From NCBI GenBank assembly GCA_011390465.1, contig JAABSH010000004.1, positions 1 through 64,000 of the forward strand: 64,000 nucleotides of DNA, written 5' to 3'. Made by a program: the position numbers and the translations under genes. Below the pieces are notes generated by a model. The model was not told the DNA's origin. It made no database searches and saw nothing but the letters and a program-made list of their open reading frames with translations. Source of the DNA: Desulfobacteraceae bacterium. Its GTDB lineage: Bacteria > Desulfobacterota > Desulfobacteria > Desulfobacterales > Desulfosalsimonadaceae. Positions 4,629 to 26,756 of this stretch are shown piece after piece (positions within the stretch are counted from its first letter, which is position 1; every line of letters begins with the position of its first letter).

Positions 4629-4629
4629 A

Positions 4630-6149: not shown

Positions 6150-6602
6150 ATGATGACAATGAAAAAAATGATGCTGGTTTTAACCCTTAATGCGATGGTG
6201 TTTTTTGCTGCGGCCACAGCCTTTGCCCATTGTGAAATTCCCTGCGGCATTTATGATGATCCCCTTCGCATTCAACTCCTGAGGGAGCACATTACCACCA
6301 TGGAAAAATCCATGAAAACCGTCCAGGCCCTGGAAAAGTCCGTGAGCCATCACGCCCATATGCTGATCCGGTGGGTTTCAAACAAAGAGGATCACGCCAA
6401 TAAATTCCAGGAAATTGTGACCCAGTATTTTATGACCCAGCGCATTTCAGCGGATGACAAAAATTATGACAAAAAAATTCAAACCCTTCACCAGATGCTG
6501 GTTGCTGCCATGAAATGCAAGCAGACCACGGACCTGGCCCATATTGAGACCTTGAGAAAACTGGTGGACCAGTTTGAGGCGCTTTATTTTAAAAAGAAAT
6601 AA
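6150..6602 (+). CDS. sodN: Secreted nickel superoxide dismutase
   Basis: It would dismute superoxide with a nickel ion held by the N-terminal nickel hook. A Sec signal peptide of 26 residues ends AFA, and the next residues are H-C-E-I-P-C-G-I-Y-D, matching the NiSOD hook HCxxPCGxYD (ligands His1, Cys2, Cys6 and the backbone). Signal peptidase cleavage after AFA would itself expose His1, so no dedicated maturation protease is needed, and no sodX-like gene is visible nearby. The mature length of about 124 residues and the helical remainder fit the family. AAGGAGG lies 7-8 bases before the start. The enzyme should act in the periplasm, sensible for an anaerobe meeting oxygen. Confidence 0.93.
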   Translation: MMTMKKMMLVLTLNAMVFFAAATAFAHCEIPCGIYDDPLRIQLLREHITTMEKSMKTVQALEKSVSHHAHMLIRWVSNKEDHANKFQEIVTQYFMTQRISADDKNYDKKIQTLHQMLVAAMKCKQTTDLAHIETLRKLVDQFEALYFKKK

Positions 6603-12220: not shown

Positions 12221-14125
12221 TCACCCATGGAGCAGTGCGGCAAGTTCCGGTAAACCAACGGATTCAAGTACCTGGCGGGTTGGAAGCCCCCGGACGTCAA
12301 AATCTCTTAAAGCATAAAATTCCGAAAGCATTTTATCCATATCCGGCTGGCTGCCCTGGGTGGGGCCTTCATCCAGTACTGTCATCAGGCGTTTGGGCAG
12401 TCGGTCATCTTGTGCCCGGGCACCGAAAAGATTGGTCATGCCCCGCTTGAGATACCAGATGCGCCGGCCGATGGATAAAATTTCATCCAGGCTGTAATCA
12501 AATCCAGTGACAAAATTGACCATATTAATGGCCTGGGTGGCATTGAGCGGCATGCCGCCGAGATTGCAGAAAATGGCGCAGTTGGAAAAAAACATGCCAT
12601 AATCCTGGGCCACGACATTCAGCTGGGCCCGTTCATCACTGCCTTCGGGAAGATCCGCGGACAGTTCCGGAATTTCCGGAATATAGATCATGCCGCCTTC
12701 GGCTTCAAAGGTAAGGCTGGCTTCATGACAGGCCCCGCGCGGTGAAATGGCATAAGCCAGACCGTAGCCGTGGGCGCTTCGGGGGTCATGCATGGGCGCT
12801 TCAAGCCCCTTGACGGTTGTCAGAAAATCCGCTGCATTGCCGCCGATTTTTTCTGCCGCTTTCTGGCTGCCAAGTCCCAGAATCGCGCCAAAGCCTTCCT
12901 GTTTTGCAATTTTTTCCACCATCTGGACAATGGCTTCAGCGTTTCCCCAGGTCAGGGCTATCCCTTCGGTATCTTTTTCAGAAATCAGACCGTTTTCAAA
13001 GCATTCAATGGCAAAAGCAATGGTGGAACCGCAGGTAATGGTGTCCATGCCGCAGCGGTTGCAGATTTCATTGGCCTTGGCAATGGATTCAATACTGGAA
13101 TTCAAACACATGGTGCCGAAAGTGGCAATGGTCTCATATTCCGGCCCGGGTCCTTTTTCCATTTTAAAAGGCCCGTCTTTGACTTCCGCGTTTTTTTTAC
13201 ATGCCACGCTGCATCCGTAGCAGGTTTTGTGGCCGGCAAAAATTTTTTCTTCAATCTCCGCCGGGCCGATGTCATCAATGTCATCCCATTCGGTTTGCTG
13301 CCAGTTTTTGATGGGAATGTCGCCGCTGATGATGCCCACATCCATGTGGGTGGCGGTACCGGCCGCGTGGATGGCACTGATGCCGATGCTTTCTTCATAC
13401 ACTTCCTTAAGTTCCGCCCGCAGGGCGTCCAGTTTTTCCGGGCAGGCCACGTTAATTTTGCCGGTGCCGGAAACAAAAATTGCTTTCAGGTTTTTAGATC
13501 CCCATACCGCGCCTAATCCGGTGCGGCCGGCAGCATGGCCTTTGTTGTTGATCAAAGACGCAAAGCGGATGCCGTTTTCCCCGGCCGGCCCAATGGCCAG
13601 CACCTGTCCGGCTTTTTGGGTTTCCGGTTTCAGGTCGGCTTTTAACCGGTCGGTTACGGTATACACATCCATGCCCCAGTATGGGGCTGCGCTTCTGATT
13701 TCAACCGTATCATTGTTAATAAACAGGTAGGAAGGGGCCGCAGCTTTGCCGGTGATGACAATGCCGTCATAACCGGCAAATTTCAAATATGCCCCGAAAA
13801 AACCGCCCACATTGCTGTCGCCCCAGTATCCGGTCAACGGAGACTTGGCGCAGACCGTCCACCTGGCCACCCCGTTCATTTTCAGCCCGGTCAACGGGCC
13901 GGTCATCACAATAAACGGATTTTCAGCAGATAACGGGTCAAACTGCGGGTTGTTTTTTATCAGATCCAGATAAATCCGGGTGCCAAACCCCATTCCGCCG
14001 ATATGCTTTCTGGCAAAATCCATATCCAGCGGTTTTTTTTCAATCTGGCCGGAAGTTAAGTCAACATAGAGGATTTGTCCGGCATAGCCTCCTTTGGCAT
14101 AACCGCCCCCAGCATATTCGCTCAT
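12221..14125 (-). CDS. Aldehyde ferredoxin oxidoreductase (AOR 2)
   Basis: 634 residues, the second AOR of the window and only distantly similar to the first. N-terminal pterin/tungsten domain: GGMGFGTRIYLDL, MTGPLTGLKMNGVARW and AAGRTGLGAVWGSKNLKAI. The cluster motif is canonical, C302-x2-C305-x3-C309 (TCYGCSVACKK), with a later cysteine in the SNCAIFCN region. DPRSAHGYGLAYAISPRGACH is the typical substrate-channel segment. It is the last gene of an operon with an Fe-alcohol dehydrogenase and an SCP2-like protein, so it probably oxidises the aldehyde made by that dehydrogenase to an acid, passing electrons to ferredoxin. AGGAGG stands eight bases before the ATG. Confidence 0.95.
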   Translation of the reverse strand: MSEYAGGGYAKGGYAGQILYVDLTSGQIEKKPLDMDFARKHIGGMGFGTRIYLDLIKNNPQFDPLSAENPFIVMTGPLTGLKMNGVARWTVCAKSPLTGYWGDSNVGGFFGAYLKFAGYDGIVITGKAAAPSYLFINNDTVEIRSAAPYWGMDVYTVTDRLKADLKPETQKAGQVLAIGPAGENGIRFASLINNKGHAAGRTGLGAVWGSKNLKAIFVSGTGKINVACPEKLDALRAELKEVYEESIGISAIHAAGTATHMDVGIISGDIPIKNWQQTEWDDIDDIGPAEIEEKIFAGHKTCYGCSVACKKNAEVKDGPFKMEKGPGPEYETIATFGTMCLNSSIESIAKANEICNRCGMDTITCGSTIAFAIECFENGLISEKDTEGIALTWGNAEAIVQMVEKIAKQEGFGAILGLGSQKAAEKIGGNAADFLTTVKGLEAPMHDPRSAHGYGLAYAISPRGACHEASLTFEAEGGMIYIPEIPELSADLPEGSDERAQLNVVAQDYGMFFSNCAIFCNLGGMPLNATQAINMVNFVTGFDYSLDEILSIGRRIWYLKRGMTNLFGARAQDDRLPKRLMTVLDEGPTQGSQPDMDKMLSEFYALRDFDVRGLPTRQVLESVGLPELAALLHG

Positions 14126-14236
14126 AGGTGTTTCCTCCTGATTGGGTTACCGTTTTGCATAAAATCTGCTGATCTTGCGATAAGTGCCGTGTTTCTTCCC
14201 CAATGCCCGGTTTTTAATCACAGAATCCGGGTATTA

Positions 14237-14674
14237 TCATCCTGCCGGCGGGGTATAGGATTTTGTAATGTTATACTGGCCGTATCCGTTTGCTTCGAGG
14301 TACTGAGGATACATGGCGTATGAGGGCTTGATGGCCGGCAGCAGTTTCAAAACTTTGGGAATCGGGCCTTTTGCCACCATTTCTTTGCGGGTGAGGGCTT
14401 TTGTCAGGTTTACCATGCCGAACCAGAACCGGTGAGCAACATCTGCGGACATGCTCATTTCAACAATGGCCTTGGTTTCCGTGTCATGGGCCCGGGTCTC
14501 CGCCTTGTCGCCGGAGCAGTCCACCACCACCACCAGATCCGGATCCGTGTAAATAAACCGGATAATCATTTTTGATTTTAACAGCTTGTCCGCAATAACC
14601 GGTGTTTCGCCGATCAGGTTGAAAAATCCCACAATAACCGTTTCAAATTCTTCCGCGCTTTTAAACATACCCAT
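14237..14674 (-). CDS. SCP2-like lipid-binding protein
   Basis: 145 residues. The central stretch DLVVVVDCSGDKAETR, then MSADVAHRFWFGMVNLTKALTRKEMVAKG and KLLPAIKPSYAMYPQYLEA, follows the sterol-carrier-protein-2 layout (beta sheet, then a helix-forming hydrophobic cavity). Such proteins bind fatty acyl or sterol-like molecules. It sits 18 bases after the Fe-alcohol dehydrogenase and 111 bases before AOR 2, and SCP2 domains are also fused to two enzymes 4-9 kb away. Inference: it presents a hydrophobic substrate to these enzymes. AAGGAG precedes the start. Confidence 0.75.
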   Translation of the reverse strand: MGMFKSAEEFETVIVGFFNLIGETPVIADKLLKSKMIIRFIYTDPDLVVVVDCSGDKAETRAHDTETKAIVEMSMSADVAHRFWFGMVNLTKALTRKEMVAKGPIPKVLKLLPAIKPSYAMYPQYLEANGYGQYNITKSYTPPAG

Positions 14675-14692
14675 GGTTTTTCTCCTTTTTAA

Positions 14693-15868
14693 TTAATAGG
14701 CATTTTTGATATAAGGTAACAATTCACATTCATCCATCTCCCGGGGATTGTAAAAGGAAGAGCCGTCATTTAAAGCGCCTTCGGCAATGGCTTCCAGGCC
14801 GTCTTCAGGGACTCCCACATCCCGGAGCCGGATGGGCAGGGCATCTAAGGCATTTAATTGCGCCGTAAGGCCGCGGACGGCGGCAATGGCGCTTCGGGCC
14901 GCGTCTTCAGTGGACAGGCCGGTGGTGTCTTCTCCCATAAACCGGGCCAGACGCGCCAGTTTTTCCGTGATTTCCTCAAAATTGTATTCCATGCCAAAGG
15001 GCAGGAATATGGCGTTTGCAACGCCGTGGGGCACGCGATAGAGGGCGCCGGTGGCATGGGCCATGCTGTGAATGCAACCGACCATGGAATGGGTGAAGGC
15101 AATACCGGCCATGGTGGAGGCAATCTGCATGCCGCCGCGGGCTTCCACATCGTCACCGTTTCGGGTGGCGGTTACAAGGTGCTTAAAAATGAGTTCAATC
15201 GCCCCGGTGGCAAATGCGTCGGAAATGGGAGATGCATCAATGTCCACATACGCTTCAATGGCATGGGTGAGAGCGTCCATGCCGGTGGCGGCGGTCATTT
15301 TTGGCGGAAGGGACAGGGTCATTTGGGGATCCAGCACTGCCAGGGTGGGCAGCAGGAATTTGTCCGGAAATGCCAGTTTTTCTTTATTTTCTTCATCATA
15401 AATCACCGCGATCATGGTGACTTCACTGCCGGTGCCGGCGGTGGTGGGAATAACCACATGGGGTTTCAGGGGGCGGGTCAGGGTCTGGGCGCCGGAATAA
15501 TCCTCCACCAGATCCCCGCCTTCGGAGAATAAAATATTGGCTGCTTTGGCCGTGTCAATCACGCTGCCGCCGCCAATGGAAACAATGCCTTCCGCACCGG
15601 AAGCCTTGATCTGATCCGCGCAGAACTGAACATCTTTCAGCCGGGCGTCCTGGGCCACATCCAGATAGGTTCCGGTGACTTCAACACCTGCTTCCGCCAG
15701 TCCGTCCGCCACTTTCTGGACAAGGCCCAGATCATGGATGACATGATCGGAGACAATAAAATATTTTTTGATGCCGATAATATCCAGCTCAGGCTTTAAA
15801 TCCGTGGCAACACCGTCTTCATAAACCACCTTGGTGGGATTATAAAATTCAAAAAATTCAGGCAGCAT
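14693..15868 (-). CDS. Iron-containing (group III) alcohol dehydrogenase
   Basis: 391 residues of the Fe-ADH family, oxidising a primary alcohol with NAD(P)+. The nucleotide motif GGGSVIDTAKA and TTAGTGSEVTMIAVI are standard. Metal ligands appear as Asp/His in GMDALTHAIEAY and the two histidines in HSMAHATGALYRVPHG. It is the first gene of a three-gene operon with an SCP2-like protein and AOR 2, giving a chemically coherent alcohol to aldehyde to acid route. AAGGAG lies eight bases before the ATG. Physiological alcohol unknown. Confidence 0.94.
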   Translation of the reverse strand: MLPEFFEFYNPTKVVYEDGVATDLKPELDIIGIKKYFIVSDHVIHDLGLVQKVADGLAEAGVEVTGTYLDVAQDARLKDVQFCADQIKASGAEGIVSIGGGSVIDTAKAANILFSEGGDLVEDYSGAQTLTRPLKPHVVIPTTAGTGSEVTMIAVIYDEENKEKLAFPDKFLLPTLAVLDPQMTLSLPPKMTAATGMDALTHAIEAYVDIDASPISDAFATGAIELIFKHLVTATRNGDDVEARGGMQIASTMAGIAFTHSMVGCIHSMAHATGALYRVPHGVANAIFLPFGMEYNFEEITEKLARLARFMGEDTTGLSTEDAARSAIAAVRGLTAQLNALDALPIRLRDVGVPEDGLEAIAEGALNDGSSFYNPREMDECELLPYIKNAY

Positions 15869-15960
15869 GGGAAACTCCTTCTTGCGGGTTAAAAATTAAG
15901 TCGGCCAACCAGTTTAGTTTTTGATTAACACAGCATCTTAATTTCGTCAATTAAATTATT

Positions 15961-16000
15961 AACATAAAATTAATCAGTTATAGCTATTTAATTTTATGTT
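15961..16000. promoter_or_regulatory. Perfect 13-bp inverted repeat upstream of the alcohol-oxidation operon
   Basis: AACATAAAATTAA (15961-15973) and TTAATTTTATGTT (15988-16000) are exact reverse complements separated by 14 bases. It lies 93 bases before the Fe-ADH start and 165 bases before the divergent barrel gene, in a 296-base AT-rich gap, and so could serve both directions. It has no T-run and is not placed as a terminator. Candidate binding site for the nearby TetR or another regulator. Confidence 0.6.
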
Positions 16001-16164
16001 GAATTTTATTCGACTGAGTTATAAATCCAATAAACATGGTTTTTTACTACGATTTATGTTTGTAAGGCCATTAAAAGCTTGAAAAAACCATCCGTCTCCG
16101 ATAAAAAATCAACCTGTATATTTGATGCTTTGGCAATATTAAAATTATCAAAAAGGAGTCTGTC

Positions 16165-17067
16165 GTGAACTTTCGATTATACATTTCCGTGTTGATGGCT
16201 TTTGTAATGGTTACCATTACCGCCGAAACCTGGGCTGCCGGGTGAGGGTGCTCTGCTCCGTCACGGAGCACTTCTCCGGTGGGGAAGGGCGGCATTGAAA
16301 ACCGCGTAGAGCAGATGAAAACAGATGCAAAATCGTATTATGCCGGTTTACGGGTGGGCGGCGTGTATGATTCCCGGGTGGGGGCGGCGTCCGGCGGGGG
16401 GGATGAAGACAGTGACACGGCTGTGGCGGCGACTCTCACGGCCGGGTGGCAGGCACCCCTGAAAGGAGATTTCGGCTTCCGCGTGGATTACAGCGGATAT
16501 GCGGATTTTCATCAGGATTTTGATGAATATGACATCATTGATCAGAGCATCTCCCTGGAAACCCAGTATTCTGTGGGGCAGATGACCTTCAGCCTTCCGG
16601 TGGCCTTTAATTATGCCATGGAAGACGGAGATACGGACTACAATAAATATACCGTATCGCCCACGCTGACCTATCTTATTCCGGAAACAAAACAGGCGGT
16701 GGCGGTTTATGCCATTGGTTCGTTGATTGATGACCGGGATGATGACCTGGAATTTGATGAAGATGCCGAAGCACTGGGAGTGGGATGCGCGTATCTTTGG
16801 TTTTTCAACGGCGGCAGCCGCGTGCGGCTTTCACTGGATTACCAGAATTCTGTCTATGATGCGCTGGTGATTGATTATGACACGGCCTCGGTTTCAACAG
16901 ATGAGCGGGAAGACGATATTATCGTGGCCGGGCTGGACGCCCAGTACCAGTTGACGGATATTTTTGGGATTTATGTCAATTATTCCTATATCCATTCCAA
17001 TTCCAATGTCAGTCTGTATGAATATGACCAGAACATTGTGGAGGCCGGCGTGGCGCTGAAATTTTAA
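16165..17067 (+). CDS. Outer-membrane beta-barrel protein with in-frame UGA after the signal peptide
   Basis: A GTG at 16165 with a good ribosome site (AAGGAG, six-base spacing) opens a 26-residue signal peptide ending ETWAAG. It is followed by TGA (16243-16245), after which the same frame stays open for 273 residues to 17067. The downstream part has barrel strands rich in alternating aromatic residues and ends in Phe (EAGVALKF), as outer-membrane proteins do; acidic loops such as DDRDDDLEFDEDAE are evident. Without the signal peptide the barrel could not be exported. The UGA is therefore recoded (selenocysteine or readthrough), a real inactivating mutation, or a sequence error. A small hairpin follows the UGA. 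Function inferred: uptake porin for the adjoining catabolic cluster. Confidence 0.6.
16254..16270 (+). other. Hairpin just downstream of the in-frame UGA
   Basis: TGCTCCG (16254-16260) and CGGAGCA (16264-16270) pair perfectly around a TCA loop, starting eight bases after the UGA. A bacterial selenocysteine insertion element would sit here, but the apical loop lacks the usual G in its first two positions, so the match is weak. The surrounding GGGTGAGGG...GGTGGGG stretch reads more like an inserted intergenic repeat than conserved protein. Confidence 0.45.
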
Positions 17068-17143
17068 GGATGACCTTATTTTAAAAGAATCCAAGCCGGA
17101 TCTGGCAGGGAGTTGTCAGGTTCAGGGAAATGTAACATAAAAA

Positions 17144-17172
17144 GGGCGCCGCAGACAGAATCTGCGGCGCCC
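17144..17172. terminator. Bidirectional intrinsic terminator
   Basis: GGGCGCCGCAGA and TCTGCGGCGCCC form a perfect 12-base stem with a five-base loop. T-runs follow on both strands, fitting its place between the convergent barrel and thiolase genes. Confidence 0.92.
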
Positions 17173-17178
17173 TTTTTG

Positions 17179-18384
17179 TTATTCATACTTTCCGATAATG
17201 GAAACACTGCAGATGTTCTGGAACGGAAAGCCGCCGAGATTGTGGGTCAGCCCGAGTTTAGGGTGTTCAAGCTGGCGCTGGTCCGCCCGGCCGTGGAGCT
17301 GGAGATACATTTCATAGAGCATGCGCAGGCCGGATGCGCCAATGGGATGGCCGAAACATTTCAGCCCCCCGTCTACCTGGCAGGGAACCCCGCCGTCAAG
17401 ATCATAGAATCCGTCCATCACGTCTTTAAGGGCCTTGCCCCGCTGTGAGATGTGCAGGTCTTCATAGGTGACAAATTCCGTGATGGAAAAACAGTCATGA
17501 ACTTCCATCATGCTGATTTCTTCTCTCGGGTTGGTGACCCCGGCTTCTTTGTAAGCCTGGGTGCTGCATTTGTCCGTGGTCATGAAATGATCCCCGTCCC
17601 AGTCATTAAACCCGGTTTCCTCGCCGCTGGAAAGGGCTATCTGCAGGGCTTTGACCGATACAAAATCCTTTTTTCCCATTTTTCTGGCAATTTCCGGGGT
17701 GGTGACAATGGCGCAGGCAGAACCGTCGCTCACGCCGCAGCAGTCAAAAAGTCCCAGCGGATGCGCGATAATGGGGGCCGCCATGATCTGGTCTTCAGTG
17801 ACTTTTTTCTGAAGATGGGCTTTGGGATTTAACATTCCGTTGGCATGGCTTTTGGCGGATACATGGGCGATGGCCCGTTTCAAATCTGCGTCTTTTATCT
17901 TGTATTTGGCGCAATAGGCGGATGCCAGCTGGGCAAAGGATCCGGGTGCGGTAAGATTGGGCCACCACTGCCAGAGAAGGGTGCCGGTGCTGGAGCCGCC
18001 CCCGGGGAGCCCGCCGTAGCCCGTGTCTTTGAGTTTTTCAACGCCGAGTGCCAGGCAGATGTCATAGGCTCCCGAGGCCACTGCGTAGCAGGCCCCCCGG
18101 AACGCTTCCGTGCCCGTAGCGCAGTAATTTTCCACCCGGGTCACCGGAATCTTGGGCAGCCGCAGGGTGACGGACAGCGGCATGGCGGTTTTCCCCACAT
18201 TCACCTCATCCATGCAGGTGCCGAACCAGGCCGCCTGGATATCATTTTGTTCAACGCCCGCGTCTTTCAGGCATTCTTCATATGCTTCCAGCATGAGTTC
18301 TTCCGCGCCCACATCCCAGCGCTCACCGAATTTGGTGCATCCCATGCCGATAATGGCAACTTTGTCTTTTATTCCTGTAGCCAT
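17179..18384 (-). CDS. SCPx-type thiolase
   Basis: 401 residues of the thiolase family closest to the SCP-x/nondecarboxylating branch. The nucleophile is C88 (ENYCATGTEAF). The SCPx-type HDCF motif has H296 (EVHDCFSITE), and the C-terminal GHP motif has H346 (KCFGHPIGASG), so all thiolase catalytic residues are present. It should cleave a 3-ketoacyl-CoA, releasing acetyl- or propionyl-CoA. It is the third gene of an operon after the two large SCP2-tailed fusion enzymes, 30 bases downstream of the second. AAGGAGG precedes the ATG. Confidence 0.92.
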   Translation of the reverse strand: MATGIKDKVAIIGMGCTKFGERWDVGAEELMLEAYEECLKDAGVEQNDIQAAWFGTCMDEVNVGKTAMPLSVTLRLPKIPVTRVENYCATGTEAFRGACYAVASGAYDICLALGVEKLKDTGYGGLPGGGSSTGTLLWQWWPNLTAPGSFAQLASAYCAKYKIKDADLKRAIAHVSAKSHANGMLNPKAHLQKKVTEDQIMAAPIIAHPLGLFDCCGVSDGSACAIVTTPEIARKMGKKDFVSVKALQIALSSGEETGFNDWDGDHFMTTDKCSTQAYKEAGVTNPREEISMMEVHDCFSITEFVTYEDLHISQRGKALKDVMDGFYDLDGGVPCQVDGGLKCFGHPIGASGLRMLYEMYLQLHGRADQRQLEHPKLGLTHNLGGFPFQNICSVSIIGKYE

Positions 18385-18414
18385 GAGGGGTCCTCCTTAT
18401 AAATGGCGATTCAT

Positions 18415-21150
18415 TTATTTAAGTTTAAAAAGTTTTCCAATCAGCTGGGATTTCATGACATCACCGTCAATGGTGAGTTTTCCCGAGGTAAATGCCTGCA
18501 TGGGATCCAATTTGCCGGATATCATGTTCACAAAATCCGTATCGCCAATGGTTAACGTGCAGGTGGGGGTGTCCGCCGTGCCGGTGGTAATGGCACAGGT
18601 GCCGTCTTTTACGCTCACGGTCCACTTGCCCCCGGATTTTCCGGAGATATTGTACTGAAATACCGCCTCCACGCCTTTGGCCGCCTCCGGCTGGAACGCG
18701 TCCGGCATTTTTTCGAAAATGTCACTGACAGATAATCCGCCGGAAGATGCTTCAGCATCGCCTGCTTTTTGGGTGTCCTCTTGGGGCGGGGTCATCAGGT
18801 CAAACAGGGCCGCATTCAGGTCATCAAATTCTTTGGCCCCTTGCATATTGTTGATCTGGTCCATGGATTCAAGGATCTGTTCCGGGGTGGGCGGGTTTTC
18901 CGCGTCTCCCAGCTGAATTCCCTGGCTGGTGAGGATGGCGGCCCGGTTGAAATAGCCCATGCCGGCATTGAAAATTTTGCCGGATTCAGTGCAATCCTCA
19001 CTGCACAGGTAAAGCACAATGGGGGAGACAAACTCCGGCTTCATTTTTTCAAATATTTCCGGGGGCATAATGTCTTCGGTGAGGCGGGAGCCGGCCAGGG
19101 GCGCGACAGTATTGACATGAATGTTATATTTGGCGCCCTCCAGCTTCAACGTATTCATCATGCCCACAAGGGCCATTTTTGCAGATGAATAATTGGTCTG
19201 GCCGAAATTGCCGTAAAGCCCGGCAGCCGAGGTGGTCATGATAATCCGGCCGAACCCGTTTTCCCGCATGAACTTGAAGGCCGGCCGGGTAACGTTGTAG
19301 GCCCCGTTCAAATGCACCGCCTGGACCGCGGCCCAGTTTTCCGGATCCATTTTAACAAAACTCTTGTCCCGGAGAATGCCGGCATTGTTGATGACAATGT
19401 CCACCCGGCCGAATGTGTCCACCGCGGTGTTCACAACGTTTTCGCCGCCCTCGGGCGTGGCCACATTGTCATAGTTGGCCACTGCCCTGCCGCCGGATTC
19501 CTGGATTTCTTTTACCACCAGGTCCGCGGGCGCGCTGGACCCCTGTCCGGAGCCGTCCCGGGCGCTGCCTAGGTCGTTGACCACCACTGCCGCGCCCCGG
19601 CGGGCCAGTTCGAGAGCATAGACTCTGCCCAATCCGCCGCCGGCGCCGGTAATAATGGCCACCCGGTCGTTAAAATTAATTTTGTTCATTTCCTCGAGCG
19701 CGCCCGGCACGGGTGCGGCTTTCCAGAAATAATTCACAAACCCGCGGCCTTCGTCTTCCGTGCGTTTCCGGAATTCCATGCGCACCGGAAGGCCGACTTT
19801 GATTTCTTCGAGTTTGCAGTCCGTAAAATCCGCCATAAACCGGCCCCCGCCCTCGAACTGGATCATGCCGTATTTCTGGGGCGGATCCACGGACACGGCC
19901 AGGAGATCCCCGGTGAAGGTTTTGATTTTGGCGGGAATGTCCGCAAATTCATAGTCGTCCTGGCTGTGCCGGGCCACACATTCCGGATTGACGCAGACCT
20001 GGGTTTTGGGAAACTGGGGCGTGCCGCATTCCCGGCATTTGCCGCCCACCAGTCCCAGAATCATTTTCCGCCGCCGCCACAGGGTGGTCACCGCCGTCTG
20101 GGTGGGGGCTTCGGCCCGGATGCCCATTTCCGGATGGATGAGGCCCCGGAATTTTAAAAATTTTAGATAGTTGTCCGTGGTCTCTTTGTTTTCAAGGGTT
20201 TGGGTGAATTTCTGTTTTTCAGCGATTTTTTTGATATTGTCCGTTACTTCAAACAAAAGCGCGCTGCATCCCTGGCCGAAACTGGCCATCAGAATTTTGT
20301 CCCCGGGTTTTGCGTCATCTAATGCCGCGGTCATCATTAAAAACGGATGGGCCGTGCCGGTTTCGCCGCAGACCTCATGCAGGTTGTCGACGACTTTTTC
20401 AGGGGCCGCGCCCAGTTTTTTGGCGATTTTTTTATGTTCCGCCTTGAAAAAACAGGGATAAACCAGTTTGTCCACATCATCCATGGTGAGGTTTAATTTT
20501 TTCAGCAGGCCGGTTACGGCTTCCGGAATAATTTTGGAGTATCCTTCATCCCGGATCCAGCGTTCTTCCCAGGTGTAGTCAAATTTTTTCATGGCCCCCC
20601 GGTAGTGGTCCACAAAATCATAGGACACGGAATAAGAGCCTTTGTACTCGGCAATAACGTCTGTGTCGCCCACGGTGAACGCGGCCGCCCCGTCGCCGAA
20701 CCACATTTCATAGAAATAGGCGGGCTTGGTTTCCCGCTTGTCCGAAGCTGCCACGAGAATGTTTTTCCGGTCCCCGCCTTTGACCGATTCAACCGCGGCC
20801 AGCAGCGCGTTGGTGGAGGCTTTCTGGGAAGCGGTAAAATCCGATGTCATAATGGCATCCGGCAGGTTGAGGGCCGTGGAAACGATGCCCGCGTTCTGGC
20901 GGTCGGCAAAGGGCAGGGTGGTGGAGGCCAGAAACAGGGCTTCCAGTTTTTGTTTGTCAATGTCTTCTATGCAGTTCCGGGCCGCGGCCACGGCCATGGT
21001 GATGGCGTCTTCATCCCAGTAGCACATGGAACGCTCCCCCTGGGCCACCATGACGATGGCCGGGGCAAACCATCCCATGCTCTGGAAAATGGCCATCCGG
21101 TTTAATCTCAAACGGGGAATGTAGGCGCCGTAAGATGTGATCCCAATCAT
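18415..21150 (-). CDS. Four-domain fusion: HMG-CoA synthase-like + DUF35 zinc-ribbon/OB + short-chain dehydrogenase + SCP2
   Basis: 911 residues. Domains: HMG-CoA synthase/thiolase fold (about 1-310); DUF35 with zinc cysteines C372, C375, C386 and C391 and an OB fold to about 478; short-chain dehydrogenase (490-745; TGAGGGLG at 501-508, NNAG at 588-591, S641, Y654, K658); SCP2 (805-911). By eye, the position of the synthase catalytic Cys (ACKAGT in archaeal enzymes) is Gln/Ser (ASQKAST, 107-113), and the His of the FHxP motif is not seen (VYPCFF, 230-235). The first domain therefore probably does not make HMG-CoA. The dehydrogenase-SCP2 half is a close paralogue of the next gene's. Operon position: second, with 24- and 30-base spacers. 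Confidence 0.9.
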   Translation of the reverse strand: MIGITSYGAYIPRLRLNRMAIFQSMGWFAPAIVMVAQGERSMCYWDEDAITMAVAAARNCIEDIDKQKLEALFLASTTLPFADRQNAGIVSTALNLPDAIMTSDFTASQKASTNALLAAVESVKGGDRKNILVAASDKRETKPAYFYEMWFGDGAAAFTVGDTDVIAEYKGSYSVSYDFVDHYRGAMKKFDYTWEERWIRDEGYSKIIPEAVTGLLKKLNLTMDDVDKLVYPCFFKAEHKKIAKKLGAAPEKVVDNLHEVCGETGTAHPFLMMTAALDDAKPGDKILMASFGQGCSALLFEVTDNIKKIAEKQKFTQTLENKETTDNYLKFLKFRGLIHPEMGIRAEAPTQTAVTTLWRRRKMILGLVGGKCRECGTPQFPKTQVCVNPECVARHSQDDYEFADIPAKIKTFTGDLLAVSVDPPQKYGMIQFEGGGRFMADFTDCKLEEIKVGLPVRMEFRKRTEDEGRGFVNYFWKAAPVPGALEEMNKINFNDRVAIITGAGGGLGRVYALELARRGAAVVVNDLGSARDGSGQGSSAPADLVVKEIQESGGRAVANYDNVATPEGGENVVNTAVDTFGRVDIVINNAGILRDKSFVKMDPENWAAVQAVHLNGAYNVTRPAFKFMRENGFGRIIMTTSAAGLYGNFGQTNYSSAKMALVGMMNTLKLEGAKYNIHVNTVAPLAGSRLTEDIMPPEIFEKMKPEFVSPIVLYLCSEDCTESGKIFNAGMGYFNRAAILTSQGIQLGDAENPPTPEQILESMDQINNMQGAKEFDDLNAALFDLMTPPQEDTQKAGDAEASSGGLSVSDIFEKMPDAFQPEAAKGVEAVFQYNISGKSGGKWTVSVKDGTCAITTGTADTPTCTLTIGDTDFVNMISGKLDPMQAFTSGKLTIDGDVMKSQLIGKLFKLK

Positions 21151-21174
21151 TTTTATTCTCCTCTATGGTTAAAA

Positions 21175-23289
21175 TCAGGTTAATTTAAAGAGTTTTTCAA
21201 TGAGCTGTGATTTCATGATATCGCCTTCTATTTTGAGCTTGCCCGATGTATAGGCCTGCATGGCCGGCAATACGCCGCTGATCATGTCGATAAAGTCAGT
21301 GTCGGCCATTTTAAGGGTGCAGGTGGGATTTTCATGGGTGCCTTTTGAAATCGCGCAGGCCCCGTCTTTGATCGCACAGCTCCAGTCTCCGCCGCCCGGG
21401 CCGGAAATGTGGTACTGAAATACCACGTCCACGCCGCCGGCCGCGTCCGGGTTAAACGCATCCGGCATGGCGGCAAATATTTCCGCCGCTGATGAGATTT
21501 TTTTACTGCTGGTATCTTGCTCCGACGCAGCCGGCGCATTAAAGGCGTTCATGGCATCGCCTACCTGTTCGTTCAGCTCAAAATAGACTTTCCCGTTTTC
21601 AAGGGATTGGATGGTATCAAACTTGTCCACCACGGTTTCAATGTCCGGCGGATTTTCACCATCGCCCACGGTGGTGCCGGGACCGGTCACCACTGCGGCC
21701 CGGTTGAAAAATCCCATGCCCGCATTGTAGATATTGCCGTTTTCTTCACATTCTTCCGAGCAGAGGAAAAGGACCAGCGGGGAGACGAATTCCGGCTTCA
21801 TTTTTTCAAACAGCTCCGGCGGCATGATATCTTCGGTCAGCCGGGAGGCGGCAATGGGAGCCACGGTATTAACCTTGATATTGTATTTTTTCCCTTCCAG
21901 TTTAAGGGTGTTCATCAGCCCCACCAGTCCCATTTTGGCGGCCGAATAATTGGTCTGGCCAAAGTTGCCGTAGAGGCCGGCGGCCGAAGTGGTCATGACA
22001 ATACGGCCAAAGCCGTTTTTCCGCATAAGGGTAAATGCCGGCCGGGTAACGTGGTATGCCCCGTTCAAATGCACATCCAGCACCGCTTTCCAGTTTTCCG
22101 GTTCCATTTTAACAAAGCTTTTGTCCCTTAAGATGCCGGCATTGTTGATCAGAATATCCACCTTGCCAAAGGCATCCACAGCGGCTTGAATGATGTTTTC
22201 CCCGCCTTCAGCAGTGGCCACATTATCGTAATTGGCCACTGCTTCTCCGCCCAGGGCCGCAATTTCTTCCACCACTTTCTGGGCCGGGGTGGCAGACCCT
22301 CCGCCGGAACCGTCTCTTGCGCCGCCCAGGTCATTGACCACCACTTTTGCCCCGCGTTTTGCCAGTTCAAGGGCATACACCCGGCCCAGGCCGCCGCCGG
22401 CGCCGGTAATCACCGCTACCTGACCGTCAAACCGGATTTCTTTTTTGGGAATCTCCCCGAATTCAAAAATACCGTTGGTGATGACGTCTTCCCCGGTTTT
22501 TGCATTAACGGTTTTCCAGACAGCTTTGTTGTCACTGGTTTTCCAGATCTGGATTTTGATGGGATCGCCGGGATAGAGAGGCCGGGAGAACCGGCATTTG
22601 AGGCGCCGGACTTTTTCCGGTGCGCCGGGCGTAAGGGAATTCATCAGCGCCCGGCAGGAATAGCCATAGGTGCACAGTCCGTGCATAATGGGTTTTTCAA
22701 ATCCTGCCATTTTGGCAAATTCCTGATCCACATGAAGCGCGAATACATCGCCGGACAGCCGGTACAGCAGCGGCTGATCCAGGGAAGGGATTTCTTGGAT
22801 TTCAAAATCCGGTGTTCGGTCCGGAAACGCGAACGTTTCCTTTGGTGCCGCTTCTCCCCCAAAACCGCCGTCAAGCCGGGAGAAAAGGGAGATGATGCTG
22901 GTAAAGAGTTTTTTGCCGTTGGCGTGCCAGGTGTCGCTTTCCCCTACAATCAGGGCGCCTTTTTTTTCACCTTTGTCATACATATGGGTGATTTTGCCCT
23001 GGGTGGTCAGTGTCCCTTCCGTGGGAATGGGCTGATGGAAGATGAGGTCCTGTTCTCCGTGGAGAATGCCGGCCAGATTGATATTGGCGTTGGAAGCGTA
23101 ATGGGACAGAAAATCAAAGATCGCTGCAATGGAAAATGTGGGGATGACTTTTAAATTTTTTTCATAACAATAATCGAGATCTGAAAACCCGGCGCCGACG
23201 CCCAAAGCATACAACACCACATCTTTCCATGTGTATTCTTTGGAAACCGGTCCAAGGTTTTTCCCGATGGCATCCAGGTTAAGCGCCAT
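21175..23289 (-). CDS. MFE-2-like multifunctional beta-oxidation enzyme: hydratase 2 (MaoC) + short-chain dehydrogenase + SCP2
   Basis: 704 residues. Residues 1-280 are a double-hotdog enoyl-CoA hydratase 2 region; the motif is LSGDVFALHVDQEFAKMAGF, retaining the catalytic Asp (D181) and His (H186) but with Phe-Ala in place of the usual Asn-Pro. Residues 287-535 are a 3-hydroxyacyl-CoA dehydrogenase of the SDR type (TGAGGGLG 295-302, NNAG 382-385, S435, Y448, K452). Residues 600-704 are SCP2. Eukaryotic peroxisomal MFE-2 has the same three domains in the order dehydrogenase-hydratase-SCP2; here the hydratase is first. It should hydrate a 2-enoyl-CoA and oxidise the product to 3-ketoacyl-CoA. 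First gene of its operon; AAAGGAGG before the ATG. Confidence 0.93.
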   Translation of the reverse strand: MALNLDAIGKNLGPVSKEYTWKDVVLYALGVGAGFSDLDYCYEKNLKVIPTFSIAAIFDFLSHYASNANINLAGILHGEQDLIFHQPIPTEGTLTTQGKITHMYDKGEKKGALIVGESDTWHANGKKLFTSIISLFSRLDGGFGGEAAPKETFAFPDRTPDFEIQEIPSLDQPLLYRLSGDVFALHVDQEFAKMAGFEKPIMHGLCTYGYSCRALMNSLTPGAPEKVRRLKCRFSRPLYPGDPIKIQIWKTSDNKAVWKTVNAKTGEDVITNGIFEFGEIPKKEIRFDGQVAVITGAGGGLGRVYALELAKRGAKVVVNDLGGARDGSGGGSATPAQKVVEEIAALGGEAVANYDNVATAEGGENIIQAAVDAFGKVDILINNAGILRDKSFVKMEPENWKAVLDVHLNGAYHVTRPAFTLMRKNGFGRIVMTTSAAGLYGNFGQTNYSAAKMGLVGLMNTLKLEGKKYNIKVNTVAPIAASRLTEDIMPPELFEKMKPEFVSPLVLFLCSEECEENGNIYNAGMGFFNRAAVVTGPGTTVGDGENPPDIETVVDKFDTIQSLENGKVYFELNEQVGDAMNAFNAPAASEQDTSSKKISSAAEIFAAMPDAFNPDAAGGVDVVFQYHISGPGGGDWSCAIKDGACAISKGTHENPTCTLKMADTDFIDMISGVLPAMQAYTSGKLKIEGDIMKSQLIEKLFKLT

Positions 23290-23334
23290 TGCTGTTCCTC
23301 CTTTTTTTAAAATTAGAGATGGGTAGAGATATAA

Positions 23335-23349
23335 TTATCATATTGATAA
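23335..23349. promoter_or_regulatory. Palindrome TTATCA-TAT-TGATAA upstream of the MFE-2-like operon
   Basis: A perfect 6-3-6 inverted repeat 46 bases before the start of the minus-strand operon and about 330 bases before the divergent racemase gene. Its position fits an operator for the operon, with the local TetR or MerR as candidate binders. The remainder of this 389-base gap is AT-rich, with no open frame I would call a gene. Confidence 0.5.
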
Positions 23350-23578
23350 AATTAAATATTTTATTCATCCAAGTTTTTAACATTGTTTTTAAACATTGTT
23401 TTAAATCATTTTATTCCAACAAATGATGGGGAAAATAATAGGCCCTTTTTTTATGCCTGTCAAAAGATTTTTGAGCTGTGAACGCTGGTTTGTTTCTATG
23501 TAGCGAAAGTCTTTAGACCACCACCATTAATATGCCTGTGAAAAATGCCATAAAAAAATACAGCGTAAAAAAACACGG

Positions 23579-23644
23579 TTGACTTGTTTTTTCTGAAAAT
23601 ATACCCTTGTTTCAAGCAATTGATGGAATCATTTGTTTGAAACA
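23579..23644 (+). promoter_or_regulatory. Weak promoter-like and inverted-repeat signals before the racemase gene
   Basis: TTGACT (23579-23584) and TATACC (23600-23605) are spaced by only 15 bases, so the promoter call is tentative. Downstream, TGTTTCAA (23608-23615) is mirrored by TTGAAACA (23637-23644), an exact 8-base inverted repeat with a 21-base spacer, ending 34 bases before the ATG. Confidence 0.3.
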
Positions 23645-23678
23645 TAACTTTTCGATACTGGTGGGTGCGGGAGGAACA

Positions 23679-24827
23679 ATGGCTGAAAAAGGTGCGTTAA
23701 AGGGATTAACTGTTCTTGATTTGTCCCGGCTGCTGCCGGGGCCGTTCTGCTCTATGATTCTGGCGGACCACGGGGCCCGGGTCATTGCTATTGAGGACAG
23801 ACGCTATGCAGCTGAAGCCGGCATCAACAGCAGTGTGATGCGGAATAAAGCCCATATCACCCTGAATCTCAAATCAGAGCAAGGCCGGGAGATTTTTTTG
23901 AAAATGGCACAAACCGCTGACATTGTGCTTGAAGGATTCAGGCCCGGTGTTACCCGGCGGCTGGGGGTGGATTATGAATCCGTAAAAAAAGTAAATCCGA
24001 AAATTATTTACTGTTCTATTTCCGGATATGGCCAGACCGGGCCGTATCAGAATACGGCCGGCCATGATGTGAATTATCTGAGTGTGGCCGGGGTGCTGGA
24101 CGTGATCGGGCCGAAAGACGGGGCCCCGTCTATTCCCGGCATTCAGATTGCGGATATGGCCGGGGGCGGCATGTATGGGGTGATCGGCATTTTAATGGCC
24201 CTGCACAGCCGGCATGAGACCGGCAAAGGCCAGTATATTGATATCTCCATGACCGACGGGGCCTTAAGTCTCATGTCTCTGGTGTTAAGTCTCGGCCAGC
24301 TGACGGGCGGGGCGGTAAAACGCTCTGATTCCATTCTGTCCCACCGGTATGCCTGCTACAATACCTATGAAACCGCAGATCACCGGTATTTATCCATTGG
24401 TGCGGTGGAAAACCGGTTCTGGAAAAATCTGTGCGTCTATTTTGACCGGCCGGAATATATCCCCCTGCAGTATGATGATGCCCATCGGGAGGCCATTATT
24501 GAATTTTTCCGGAAAAAATTCATGGAAAAGACCCTTGGGCAATGGTATGACGCTTTTTCCGATCTGGATATCTGCTGGGGGCCGGTGCAAACCCTGGCGG
24601 AAGCATTAGATGATCCATTGTTCAGGCATCGGGAAATGGTGGTGGCATTAACCGGCAGCAACGGCAAGACAAACCGGTTTCTGGGAACCCCGGTAAAAAT
24701 GAGCCGTACCCCGGGTGCCGTAACCACCCTGCCGCCGGAATATGGCGAAAATACCATCAGCGTTCTCAAGGCATACGGCTATTCTGATGCTGACATTGAA
24801 AGATTCGAAACTCAGGACGTCATTTAA
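23679..24827 (+). CDS. amacr: Alpha-methylacyl-CoA racemase (CaiB/BaiF family III)
   Basis: 382 residues from the ATG at 23679, chosen because GGGAGGA stands just before it; an upstream extension is not conserved-looking. The family includes CoA-transferases and racemases. Here the racemase catalytic pair is visible: H129 in AGHDVNYLSVAG and D159 in IADMAGGG, aligned with His126/Asp156 of the mycobacterial racemase, together with SGYGQTGPY. It should epimerise (2R)/(2S)-methylacyl-CoA so that the 2S form enters beta-oxidation. It is divergent from the MFE-2-like operon and followed after 33 bases by a TetR gene. A CoA-transferase role is less likely but not excluded. Confidence 0.87.
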   Translation: MAEKGALKGLTVLDLSRLLPGPFCSMILADHGARVIAIEDRRYAAEAGINSSVMRNKAHITLNLKSEQGREIFLKMAQTADIVLEGFRPGVTRRLGVDYESVKKVNPKIIYCSISGYGQTGPYQNTAGHDVNYLSVAGVLDVIGPKDGAPSIPGIQIADMAGGGMYGVIGILMALHSRHETGKGQYIDISMTDGALSLMSLVLSLGQLTGGAVKRSDSILSHRYACYNTYETADHRYLSIGAVENRFWKNLCVYFDRPEYIPLQYDDAHREAIIEFFRKKFMEKTLGQWYDAFSDLDICWGPVQTLAEALDDPLFRHREMVVALTGSNGKTNRFLGTPVKMSRTPGAVTTLPPEYGENTISVLKAYGYSDADIERFETQDVI

Positions 24828-24860
24828 TTCTGATACAAGCATATAAAAAAGGTCAACAGC

Positions 24861-25478
24861 ATGCCATCTTCTCTTGAAAAAGCAAAACAAAATCCGGATT
24901 CCATGAAGGCGAAAATTCTCGGGGCGGCCCGGAAGATATTCGGGGAATACGGGTTTCACGGCACCACCACCCGGATGATTGCCAAAGCGGTGAACATTGA
25001 TATCTCCACCCTGTATTACCACTGGGGGGAAAAGGGCGACCTCTATGAGGCCGTGATCATGGATGTCACCGAAGGAATGCGTCAGAAGCTGATTGAGGTG
25101 GAAAAAATCATCAAAGGACGGCCCCTGGAAGAAAGGATCCGGATCGCTTTAGATGAAATGGCGGATTATCTGTTTGAAAATCCGGAAATATCCAATCTCA
25201 CCCTGTTCCGGTATTTCACCAAAATGCGGCACGGCAGTGTGCTGGATTTCAAGGTGCCGGAATATATATCCGATATCGCCTATTCCATGGGACTTTCCAG
25301 GGACCGAAACAATGTTCCCTTTGATGCGAGAATGAAGGTGCTGTCCATCATGAACGCCATTCATAATTTTGTGTCCGGTGAAAATTTTTTCCGGCCCATG
25401 ATGCAGGTCACCCGCGAAGAATATATCCGCGAGGCCAAAAATACCCTGAAATTTTTTAATGTGTCGGCTTTTTCTTAG
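24861..25478 (+). CDS. TetR-family regulator
   Basis: 205 residues; the helix-turn-helix TTTRMIAKAVNIDISTLYYHWGEKGDLYEAV follows a helix KILGAARKIFGEYGFHG. The C-terminal domain is helical with no recognised ligand signature. It is probably co-transcribed with the racemase 33 bases upstream and converges on the isomerase gene, 11 bases away. Acyl-CoA-responsive TetR proteins commonly sit in such catabolic clusters, so control of the racemase and MFE-2-like operons is a reasonable inference. Confidence 0.9.
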   Translation: MPSSLEKAKQNPDSMKAKILGAARKIFGEYGFHGTTTRMIAKAVNIDISTLYYHWGEKGDLYEAVIMDVTEGMRQKLIEVEKIIKGRPLEERIRIALDEMADYLFENPEISNLTLFRYFTKMRHGSVLDFKVPEYISDIAYSMGLSRDRNNVPFDARMKVLSIMNAIHNFVSGENFFRPMMQVTREEYIREAKNTLKFFNVSAFS

Positions 25479-25489
25479 GTTTTGTCTGC

Positions 25490-26212
25490 CTAATCCTGGA
25501 CCATCAGAAATAACGGCTCAATATATTCCGGATCTTCAGTTTCCATTACCTGGACGATCTGTTTGTGCATGCGTTTTTTGTGCTCGCCGAAAATCCCGCG
25601 TTTTTTGGTAAAGGTATTGGCAAAAGCCAGGGCTTCCGCCATCAGTTCTTCCGCATTGGCGCAGGCTTTTAAAAGAACGTGGCTCTCCGCCAGTTCGGCC
25701 GCGCCGGCCCGTTTTCCCGTGAGTTTCATTTCATTGAATTTATATTCAGGCACGGCTTTTCGCACAAACGCCACCATTCCCGGCAGAAAGGGGATGCCCA
25801 GGTCCACTTCCGGAAAGCAGAAATAGCCGCGGTCGGATTTCATCAGCCGGAAATCACAGGCGCAGGCCAAAATAGCGCCGTTGCCGAATGCGTGCCCGTT
25901 AATGGCCGCAATGACCGGCATGGGCAGCAACAGCAGCCGCTGAAAAACCCGGTTCATGCCGTACATGAAATTTTTGATATCATTGAAATTTTTTTCCATA
26001 AACTGTTTGCCCAGCCAGTCCACATCCACGCCCAAAGACCAGCATTTCTGATCTGCGGAAGTAATAATCACCGCAATAACAGCGGTGTCTTCCACGATTT
26101 CATCCAGCACCGCAGTAAAGCGTTGTGCAAATGCCAGATTCTGCCGGTTTTCTTTGTTATTGAGACGGATGACGGCAACCGTGTCTTTTTTTTCCCATTC
26201 AATAATCGCCAT
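25490..26212 (-). CDS. Crotonase-family protein, probably delta3,delta2-enoyl-CoA isomerase
   Basis: 240 residues of the enoyl-CoA hydratase/isomerase superfamily. The oxyanion segment is NGHAFGNGAILACACDFRLM. The glutamate of FPEVDLGIPF is kept, but the other hydratase glutamate (GGGCELA in hydratases) is replaced within GNGAILA. One catalytic Glu and the SDRGYFCFPEVDLGIP pattern are features of enoyl-CoA isomerases rather than hydratases. It would move double bonds of unsaturated acyl-CoAs into the 2-position for the MFE-2-like enzyme. The MerR gene lies 35 bases upstream on the same strand. Confidence 0.85.
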   Translation of the reverse strand: MAIIEWEKKDTVAVIRLNNKENRQNLAFAQRFTAVLDEIVEDTAVIAVIITSADQKCWSLGVDVDWLGKQFMEKNFNDIKNFMYGMNRVFQRLLLLPMPVIAAINGHAFGNGAILACACDFRLMKSDRGYFCFPEVDLGIPFLPGMVAFVRKAVPEYKFNEMKLTGKRAGAAELAESHVLLKACANAEELMAEALAFANTFTKKRGIFGEHKKRMHKQIVQVMETEDPEYIEPLFLMVQD

Positions 26213-26247
26213 ACTTTTTTTCTCCTCACTGCATATTGAATTTTGCG

Positions 26248-26661
26248 TTATTTGATATTGAGTTCTTCCATGCGTTTTGATATTTTTTGCTGAATTGCCA
26301 GCAGATCTTCTCTCAGGATCTGCAATTCCTGCATGCGTTCATTGATTTCAACCAGTTTGCGTTTGCCATAGCTAAAGGTTTTTTTCAGCTGCTGCTCCTC
26401 TTCCATGTTAAAATTGGCCAGACCAATCATTTCTGAAATGTCTTCCAGAGAATATCCCAGCCGTTTGCCCCGGAGAATCAGTTTGAGCCTGGCCCGGTCC
26501 CGTTTGCTGTAAATCCGGTGATTGCCTTTGGTCCGTTCCGGCAGAATCAGCCCTTTTTCTTCATAGAACCGGATGGCCCGGGTGCTGATATCCAGCTGAT
26601 CCGCCAGCTCAGAAATCGTAAACAATGTTTCGGTATTTTCGTTTTCTTGATTTTGCGTCAT
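26248..26661 (-). CDS. MerR-family regulator
   Basis: 137 residues from the ATG at 26661 (GAGG six bases before it); a GTG four codons upstream is also possible. The winged helix LFTISELADQLDISTRAIRFYEEKGLILPERTKGNHRIYSKRD is classic MerR, followed by a dimerisation coiled coil of Glu/Lys/Leu heptads. No metal-binding cysteines are present, so it is not a metal sensor; the form recalls MerR regulators of acyl-CoA catabolism. It is first in a two-gene unit with the isomerase. Confidence 0.9.
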   Translation of the reverse strand: MTQNQENENTETLFTISELADQLDISTRAIRFYEEKGLILPERTKGNHRIYSKRDRARLKLILRGKRLGYSLEDISEMIGLANFNMEEEQQLKKTFSYGKRKLVEINERMQELQILREDLLAIQQKISKRMEELNIK

Positions 26662-26756
26662 TGAAAACCTCACAGGGGTTGTCGTTAAAAGGGTTGTGCC
26701 GGTTTAACCGTATATCCGTAACCAAAGGAGCACAAGAGATCATTTTCTTTCCGCGA

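Follow-up and report, generated by a model that had tools for sequence, protein, structure and literature searches.

What is a dense set of lipid-handling genes in an apparently anaerobic bacterium of the Desulfobacteraceae (GTDB family Desulfosalsimonadaceae; assembly GCA_011390465.1) used for? The genes occupy positions 12221 to 26661 of the window, a stretch of 64,000 nucleotides on contig JAABSH010000004.1 (contig C64 in our numbering) of a genome of 3.93 Mb in 119 contigs. An initial annotation of the letters alone had likened them to the peroxisomal set for beta-oxidation of branched chains and sterol side chains, and every gene it named is indeed present there as an open reading frame with the domains assigned, according to Pfam. 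Based on computed gene content, catalytic residues, conserved gene order, a link to acyl-CoA dehydrogenases in relatives and signals of UGA recoding, we hold with moderate confidence that two operon-like runs on the minus strand, parted by a plus-strand gene for an outer-membrane barrel, together serve to break down, anaerobically, a hydrophobic aliphatic substrate that is most likely methyl-branched.

A conserved core of two fusion genes and a thiolase

The first run, called the core here, reads 704-amino acid (aa) fusion, 911-aa fusion, thiolase, with gaps of 24 and 30 bases:

21175-23289, minus strand: 704-aa fusion of an MFE-2-type hydratase (MaoC), a short-chain dehydrogenase/reductase (SDR) and SCP2
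18415-21150, minus strand: 911-aa fusion of an HMG-CoA-synthase-like domain (no catalytic Cys), DUF35 (zinc ribbon/OB), an MFE-2-type SDR and SCP2
17179-18384, minus strand: SCPx-type thiolase without an SCP2 tail (NCBIfam PRK06157, 707 bits against a cut-off of 403)

We searched 146 genomes, the window's own included. A match spanning the HMG-CoA-synthase-like and SDR parts of the 911-aa protein was detected in at least 52 of them, 29 belonging to the window's family and the other 23 spread over 20 further families of its order. Among the 30 loci with the best matches, one of which is the window's, the MFE-like gene lies directly upstream of the 911-type gene in 29 and the thiolase gene directly downstream in 29, order and strand being kept; both exceptions, one on each side, are contig ends. 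A scan of named genomes gave at least 586 relatives, of which the best 80 loci were examined, each denominator below 80 counting those with room for the gene in question. Here the thiolase follows in 53/54, the hydratase precedes in 50/58, and the SDR is fused in 61/72; a homologue of the window's second TetR gene occurs in 44/80, mostly directly before the core. By record title, these 80 are mostly metagenome-assembled genomes (MAGs) of Desulfobacteraceae, Desulfobacterales or Deltaproteobacteria, and they include the cultured Desulfosarcina alkanivorans PL12 and D. widdelii PP31 as well as Syntrophus, Desulfomonile, Chloroflexi and one Phycisphaerales MAG. Co-location in other genomes, which had been proposed as a test, is therefore a property of the core in many genomes. 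A literature search found no description of this operon.

Residue counts refer to distinct homologues from the fetched loci, the window's included. The thiolase keeps its nucleophilic Cys and the motifs HDCF and GHP in 91/91. Steroid aldolases of the thiolase fold carry YDCY or YDHF where thiolases have HDCF, according to the available part of PMC12329534, and a role as an aldolase of the Sal/Ltp2 kind was ruled out by HDCF together with the intact Cys. The hydratase of the 704-aa protein has its catalytic Asp and His in 79/79; among solved structures, 3khp of the MaoC family matches it about as well as MFE-2 (1s9c, E 3.2e-49). Ser-Tyr-Lys is found in 172/172 SDR domains.

The SDR and hydratase-2-type domains with SCP2 resemble MFE-2 (HSD17B4; Fox2 in yeast). 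In the 704-aa fusion their order is hydratase-SDR-SCP2, in contrast to SDR-hydratase-SCP2 in animal MFE-2. Likewise, the 401-aa thiolase differs from SCPx in having no fused SCP2.

Between the two fusions, the SDR-SCP2 tails share 67% identity. In a tree of the 172 SDR domains, 69 of the 86 belonging to 911-type proteins form one clade and the rest fall among MFE-type tails, which suggests one old duplication and later, recurrent copying in some lineages.

The HMG-CoA-synthase-like half of the 911-aa protein

For the 911-aa protein, the SCP2 tail had been recognized but the half carrying the HMG-CoA-synthase-like and DUF35 domains was overlooked. Its first 480 residues comprise an archaeal-type HMG-CoA-synthase-like domain and a zinc-ribbon/OB domain (DUF35, ChsH2-type); the remainder is an MFE-2-type SDR, with (3R)-hydroxyacyl-CoA dehydrogenase 2et6 and HSD17B4 as best solved-structure matches, followed by SCP2. 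The position of the catalytic Cys (Cys114 in the archaeal enzyme) is Gln in the window's protein, and among 112 distinct homologues none was found to have Cys there (Gln in 75, Leu in 26, Met and Ile in 4 each, Glu and Val in 1 each; one unreadable). A KSQ-like decarboxylase was considered while Gln was invariant in the first 18 sequences; wider sampling gave Gln, Leu, Met, Ile, Val or Glu, and because of this variation a Gln-based mechanism was dropped in favor of a non-catalytic scaffold.

The nearest solved relatives of this domain are PhlA-type proteins. According to the part of PMC6392133 available to us, PhlA also has no catalytic Cys and is taken as structural and needed for assembly, the thiolase-like subunit PhlC does the chemistry in PhlABC, and an archaeal thiolase/HMG-CoA synthase/DUF35 complex has the same arrangement. 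In our locus the thiolase likewise adjoins the HMG-CoA-synthase-like and DUF35 domains, and since its gene follows in nearly all named loci with room, we infer from sequence and gene order that the 911-aa protein and the thiolase form a PhlABC-like complex, with the HMG-CoA-synthase-like domain probably serving as a non-catalytic scaffold for the thiolase. In contrast to PhlABC and the archaeal complex, as far as the genes tell, the two domains share one chain with SDR-SCP2, and they belong to a beta-oxidation set. Joining an HMG-CoA-synthase domain without catalytic function to oxidoreductase and lipid-carrier domains in one protein would represent a novel layout for beta-oxidation machinery.

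Acyl-CoA dehydrogenases and CoA ligases

The initial annotation had remarked that the window has neither an acyl-CoA dehydrogenase nor a CoA ligase. This is correct: of the genome's matches to these enzymes (18 and 26, respectively), none is on the window's contig. In relatives, an acyl-CoA dehydrogenase (>40% identity) is encoded within 6 kb of the core in 29/44 named loci with room, and CoA ligase genes are sometimes found beside it; example dehydrogenases and ligases were assigned to their families by Pfam. The window's own genome has a matching dehydrogenase pair at C59:1230-3482 (65% and 51% identity) and a relative of the ligase at C51:7510-9186 (57%). Acyl-CoA dehydrogenases next to the core point to the oxidative direction and agree with the proposed logic of racemase, MFE-2-like and SCPx-type enzymes acting in beta-oxidation.

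In the window's own genome (L166:1227-4791), the dehydrogenase pair adjoins a 360-aa protein whose matches to cyclic-nucleotide-binding and family 2B encapsulin models are below cut-off.

The racemase and its neighbors

Divergently from the core lie the genes for an alpha-methylacyl-CoA racemase (AMACR) and a TetR regulator, followed by crotonase and MerR genes:

23290-23678: intergenic region between divergent genes, rich in A/T; TTGACA-17-TATTAT at 23463-23435 (minus strand) is its best promoter-like match
23679-24827, plus strand: AMACR, CoA-transferase III family (Pfam, MCR alignment)
24861-25478, plus strand: TetR-family regulator 2 (Pfam)
25490-26212, minus strand: crotonase with a single Glu, delta3,delta2-enoyl-CoA isomerase-like (Pfam, residues)
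26248-26673, minus strand: MerR-family regulator (Pfam)

The number of promoter-like matches in the intergenic region is not above chance. The start of AMACR is most likely ATG 23679, judging from the shorter frames of relatives. Its best matches in the PDB are to Mycobacterium tuberculosis MCR, with all four catalytic residues aligned, and the Arg, His, Asp and Glu that act in catalysis in AMACR are present in 27/27 distinct homologues; the window's protein, a predicted racemase, differs from MCR in being encoded beside an anaerobic-type gene set. It is the sole CoA_transf_3 gene found in the genome, and the cluster also holds 3/4 of the whole genome's SCP2 domains. The crotonase shows the single-Glu isomerase signature noted earlier, keeping only the second catalytic Glu in 10/10 distinct homologues. 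Among 41 loci, the crotonase and MerR genes are confined to the window's family, except for a distant crotonase (46%, L054).

At a threshold of E <= 1e-100 in the 146 genomes, AMACR and the core are both present in 39, the core without AMACR in 13 and AMACR without the core in 28 (Fisher p 1.5e-7, phylogeny ignored). In 22 of the 39 they share a contig and lie no more than 13 kb apart; six of these 22 are outside the window's family. The link between AMACR and the core is real, yet looser than the links within the core.

The putative alcohol-oxidation module

The second minus-strand run reads Fe-dependent alcohol dehydrogenase (Fe-ADH), SCP2, aldehyde ferredoxin oxidoreductase (AOR), with gaps of 18 and 111 bases:

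14693-15868, minus strand: Fe-ADH (Pfam), fused to SCP2 in some relatives
14237-14674, minus strand: stand-alone SCP2-domain protein, 145 aa (25.6 bits against a cut-off of 21.3; alignment)
12221-14125, minus strand: AOR (AFOR_N/AFOR_C in Pfam; PDB match to AOR, 3.6e-122)
11480-12058, minus strand: TetR-type regulator 1, adjoining the run

We fetched nine loci in which the small SCP2 gene is off the core's contig or in a genome without a core hit. The complete run stands away from the core in five (G145, G096, G079, G018 and G024), three of them outside the family; G108 lacks an AOR beside its Fe-ADH and SCP2, and G125 and G005 have SCP2 and AOR with a contig end at the expected place of Fe-ADH. 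In G006, the run adjoins the thiolase, as in the window. Further, Fe-ADH is fused to SCP2 in four loci, as three complete proteins of 611-614 aa (L190:5329-7173, L191:6208-8052, L192:5084-6919) and one cut by the locus end (L181:18484-19998). Judged by their motifs, the neighbors of these fusions are presumably PhaR-like in all four and patatin-like in three (not L192), possibly marking a storage-lipid locus. The fusions identify SCP2 as the partner of Fe-ADH, and this pairing speaks for some lipid alcohol as the substrate without pointing to sterols.

Another AOR, shorter (578 aa) and sharing about 27% identity with the first, is encoded within window positions 2280-6104, with a 203-aa protein without a Pfam match and a ThiF-family gene as neighbors. 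Similar genes occur in a relative (L038); they are perhaps another tungsten-enzyme set.

Proposed pathway and alternatives

An oxidative route for methyl-branched compounds fits best because, next to enzymes of beta-oxidation, no other function suggests itself for AMACR, and because acyl-CoA dehydrogenases set the direction. The hydrophobic compound would pass the outer membrane through the barrel, a predicted selenoprotein treated below. Fe-ADH may then oxidize an alcohol to the aldehyde and AOR the aldehyde to the acid, while the small SCP2 protein would hold the lipid; a CoA ligase encoded elsewhere would activate the acid. AMACR is predicted to set the stereochemistry of the methyl group at C2, and acyl-CoA dehydrogenases, encoded beside the core in relatives and on another contig here, would produce the enoyl-CoA, with the crotonase as a putative isomerase shifting misplaced double bonds. 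The 704-aa protein would hydrate and oxidize along the (R)-hydroxyacyl route, and the thiolase would release acetyl- or propionyl-CoA. The 911-aa protein could add another SDR and a lipid-binding SCP2, and its HMG-CoA-synthase-like and DUF35 domains would be a non-catalytic scaffold docking on the thiolase, in the manner of PhlABC and the archaeal complex. Isoprenoid acids, the methyl-branched fatty acids found in bacterial necromass, and 4- and 2-methyl acyl-CoAs derived from alkanes are candidate substrates.

An epimerization step has been proposed for the methyl acyl-CoAs of alkane degradation (PMC3653055 and PMC6776118, both as far as their accessible parts go), and the accessible part of PMC6776118 describes the racemase as a proposed step in alkane degradation by fumarate addition that is missing in some degraders. 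In the window's genome, we found three glycyl radical enzyme frames longer than 800 aa and one fragment; no NCBIfam model scored above cut-off for the three long ones, the presence of an alkylsuccinate synthase model in the library being unchecked. Most of the component families are known, and we found no description of variants with this combination, this order, the pseudo-HMG-CoA-synthase fusion or the selenocysteine barrel. If the proposed pathway is correct, the locus supplies enzymes for the oxidation of branched lipids without oxygen in anoxic sediment, which is testable in the cultured strains.

Several observations weigh against this pathway. AMACR was not found in 13 of the 52 core-bearing genomes and is on another contig in 17, many assemblies being fragmented, and only 13/44 named loci with room have it in the locus. 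No acyl-CoA dehydrogenase is within 6 kb in 15/44. As the Fe-ADH-SCP2-AOR run is also found apart from the core, the 14 kb are not one unit; of the single cluster originally described, the conserved order of the core stands, whereas the alcohol module is separable, AMACR keeps company with the core in part of the genomes having both, and the crotonase and MerR genes were seen, with one exception among 41 loci, in the family only. The Asn of the hydratase-2 motif GDxNPLH, which has a role in hydratase 2, is replaced by Phe (Phe183 in the 704-aa protein) in 76 of 79 distinct homologues, with Asn in 2 and Leu in 1. This is a further difference from MFE-2, and it renders the hydratase activity of the 704-aa protein uncertain, not that of a textbook hydratase 2. 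For the 911-type proteins, Cys stands one residue before the aligned catalytic position in 5/112, where an off-register Cys is possible, and AlphaFold modeled the 911-aa chain poorly, with a mean predicted local distance difference test (pLDDT) score of 59.5.

The incomplete presence of AMACR and the separable alcohol module would both be expected if the core were a general metabolon for beta-oxidation of long-chain or odd substrates, with AMACR and the module as opportunistic neighbors and a substrate that need not be branched. In favor of such a metabolon, straight very-long chains, too, are processed by SCP2 and MFE-2-type enzymes. However, the presence of AMACR correlates with that of the core and the two are adjacent in several families; moreover, other beta-oxidation dehydrogenases are scarce in the genome (3HCDH_N: two strong matches, one weak), and its single AMACR-family gene is the one in this cluster. 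We consider a general metabolon a serious alternative of clearly minor probability.

A reductive role, in which AOR and Fe-ADH make fatty alcohols for wax esters or ether lipids and the core condenses acyl-CoAs, is improbable. AOR and Fe-ADH are reversible, and the PhaR-like and patatin-like neighbors of the Fe-ADH-SCP2 fusions would suit it, but the acyl-CoA dehydrogenases beside the core of relatives and the missing condensing Cys of the HMG-CoA-synthase-like domain do not, and AMACR suits catabolism.

Degradation of sterol or isoprenoid side chains, phytol-like alcohols included, seems to us slightly less probable still. The succession of AMACR, MFE-2 and SCPx is that of peroxisomes, and the same logic is found in the actinobacterial sterol side-chain set, with AMACR, acyl-CoA dehydrogenase, MaoC hydratase, SDR and a thiolase with DUF35; the adjacent genes for alcohol and aldehyde oxidation would fit as well. 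Nevertheless, the SDR of the 911-aa protein scores 320 bits against eukaryotic MFE-2 and 165 and 162 bits against 3qlj and 7ulh, which we take to be of mycobacterial origin, and the cluster has a thiolase with HDCF, not an aldolase with the YDCY or YDHF of steroid side-chain aldolases. None of the genes examined codes for a recognizable sterol-specific enzyme, ring-degradation genes not having been searched for, and a literature search for the gene combination gave nothing relevant. SCP2 itself is a general lipid-binding domain. Nothing seen points to sterols, and the sterol arm of the initial annotation is not supported.

A predicted selenocysteine outer-membrane barrel

The barrel between the two runs had been recognized, but its start was placed too far downstream and an in-frame TGA was overlooked. 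The frame listed then, 16279-17067, has no signal peptide. The true gene begins with a GTG at 16165 behind AAGGAG and continues with a signal-peptide-like stretch, the TGA at 16243 and the residues GCSAPSRS:

16165-17067, plus strand: predicted selenocysteine outer-membrane barrel (GTG start, signal peptide)
16243-16245, plus strand: in-frame TGA, predicted selenocysteine codon, immediately 3' of the signal peptide
16271-16287, plus strand: SECIS-like hairpin of 7 pairs with apical loop GGU (covariation, RNAalifold)

Fifteen full-length copies were found in 14 of the 146 genomes, at identities as low as 36%; each is interrupted by a single TGA and free of other stops, and the TGA is at the same place in the homologues read. 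It is followed by Gly-Cys in 14 copies and by Pro-Cys in one. Thirteen copies are on a contig with cluster genes; those of G144 and G012 are elsewhere. Eleven weaker hits have no stops and are longer frames of 442-529 aa, apart from one fragment at a contig end. Synonymous changes make up 70% of the single-base codon differences between the TGA and the GTG of the frame listed earlier, where 29% would be expected (computed over every pair of 13 sequences, the pairs being non-independent). That GTG is replaced by GTC, GTT or GCG in some relatives and is thus not a conserved start.

One relative has tandem copies, at L058:12356-13144 and L058:11342-12163, one of which is the copy with Sec-Pro-Cys.

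The consensus of the bacterial selenocysteine insertion sequence (SECIS) is a stem-loop just 3' of the UGA with a G in the apical loop. Applied to 14 of the 15 copies, RNAalifold gave, unprompted, a single hairpin that begins 25 bases beyond the TGA and has the loop GGU. In this hairpin 95.9% of cells pair; two-sided changes occur in 4/7 pairs, a number reached by 11/500 shuffles, and the covariation score was reached by 0/500. The genome encodes SelB (TIGR00475, 367 bits against a cut-off of 242) and two tRNA-Sec genes (L220, L221) over the Rfam cut-off with anticodon tca, a cut-off reached in 5/14 control genomes. Two such genes in one genome are unusual. Based on sequence comparison, the barrel appears to be a selenocysteine-containing outer-membrane protein.

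Other results speak against recoding. The number of pair types in the hairpin is ordinary (reached by 125/500 shuffles), Rfam gave no match at the hairpin, the minimum-energy fold of the window's stretch alone is another pairing, and z-scores of five single-stretch folds are modest (−0.4 to −2.5). No homologue with Cys at the selenocysteine place was found in the 146 genomes or, at E <= 1e-15, in 395 of the phylum; such a homologue is supportive of a selenoprotein, not required. The family is also narrow: the search of the 395 genomes gave full-length barrels in G000 and G004 only, besides two weak hits that are longer frames without stops. That the TGA is a true stop, the gene being a pseudogene or restarting at the downstream GTG, would agree with the lack of a catalogued SECIS, the weak single-sequence folds and a selenoprotein status predicted from sequence, yet we regard it as very unlikely given a lone TGA in every copy across distant homologues, the synonymous excess behind it, the varying GTG and the signal peptide in front.

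The barrel model has 13 strand elements, which we read as 12 strands, one broken (pLDDT 75.3); the stretch bearing selenocysteine is modeled with low confidence. Structural matches at Z ~18 are autotransporter barrels and a COG4313 channel (4rl8: Z 18.3, root-mean-square deviation 3.4, 241 residues aligned), the autotransporter barrels tying with it, and Pfam gave weak hits to other barrel families on the shortened frame, none of them that of COG4313. COG4313 proteins are described in the available part of PMC4493636 as 12-stranded, implicated in hydrophobic uptake and holding an N-terminal segment in the lumen. The modeled barrel would resemble them in its about 12 strands, an N-terminal segment and a place near catabolic genes, and would differ in a predicted selenocysteine near the mature N-terminus.

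We know of no selenoprotein among outer-membrane barrels. In the one paper checked on this point, PMC5029168, the terms "outer membrane" and "porin" are absent from the main text as far as it was available. A barrel of the outer membrane that begins, on the periplasmic side, with selenocysteine would bring a new protein class into the selenoproteins. Tentatively, a fuller picture can be drawn in which the selenocysteine channel feeds branched-lipid oxidation, an exposed Sec-Gly-Cys near the N-terminus, in the periplasmic segment of the 12-stranded barrel, is a redox- or metal-responsive gate, and the complex of thiolase, pseudo-HMG-CoA synthase and DUF35 with SDR and SCP2 channels methyl-branched acyl chains without releasing them; we rate this combination as possible, though doubtful.

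Further genes of the window

Outside the cluster, positions 6150-6602 encode a nickel superoxide dismutase, although the genome is apparently that of an anaerobe, and positions 7869-8948 an LpxR-type outer-membrane protein (337.7 bits).

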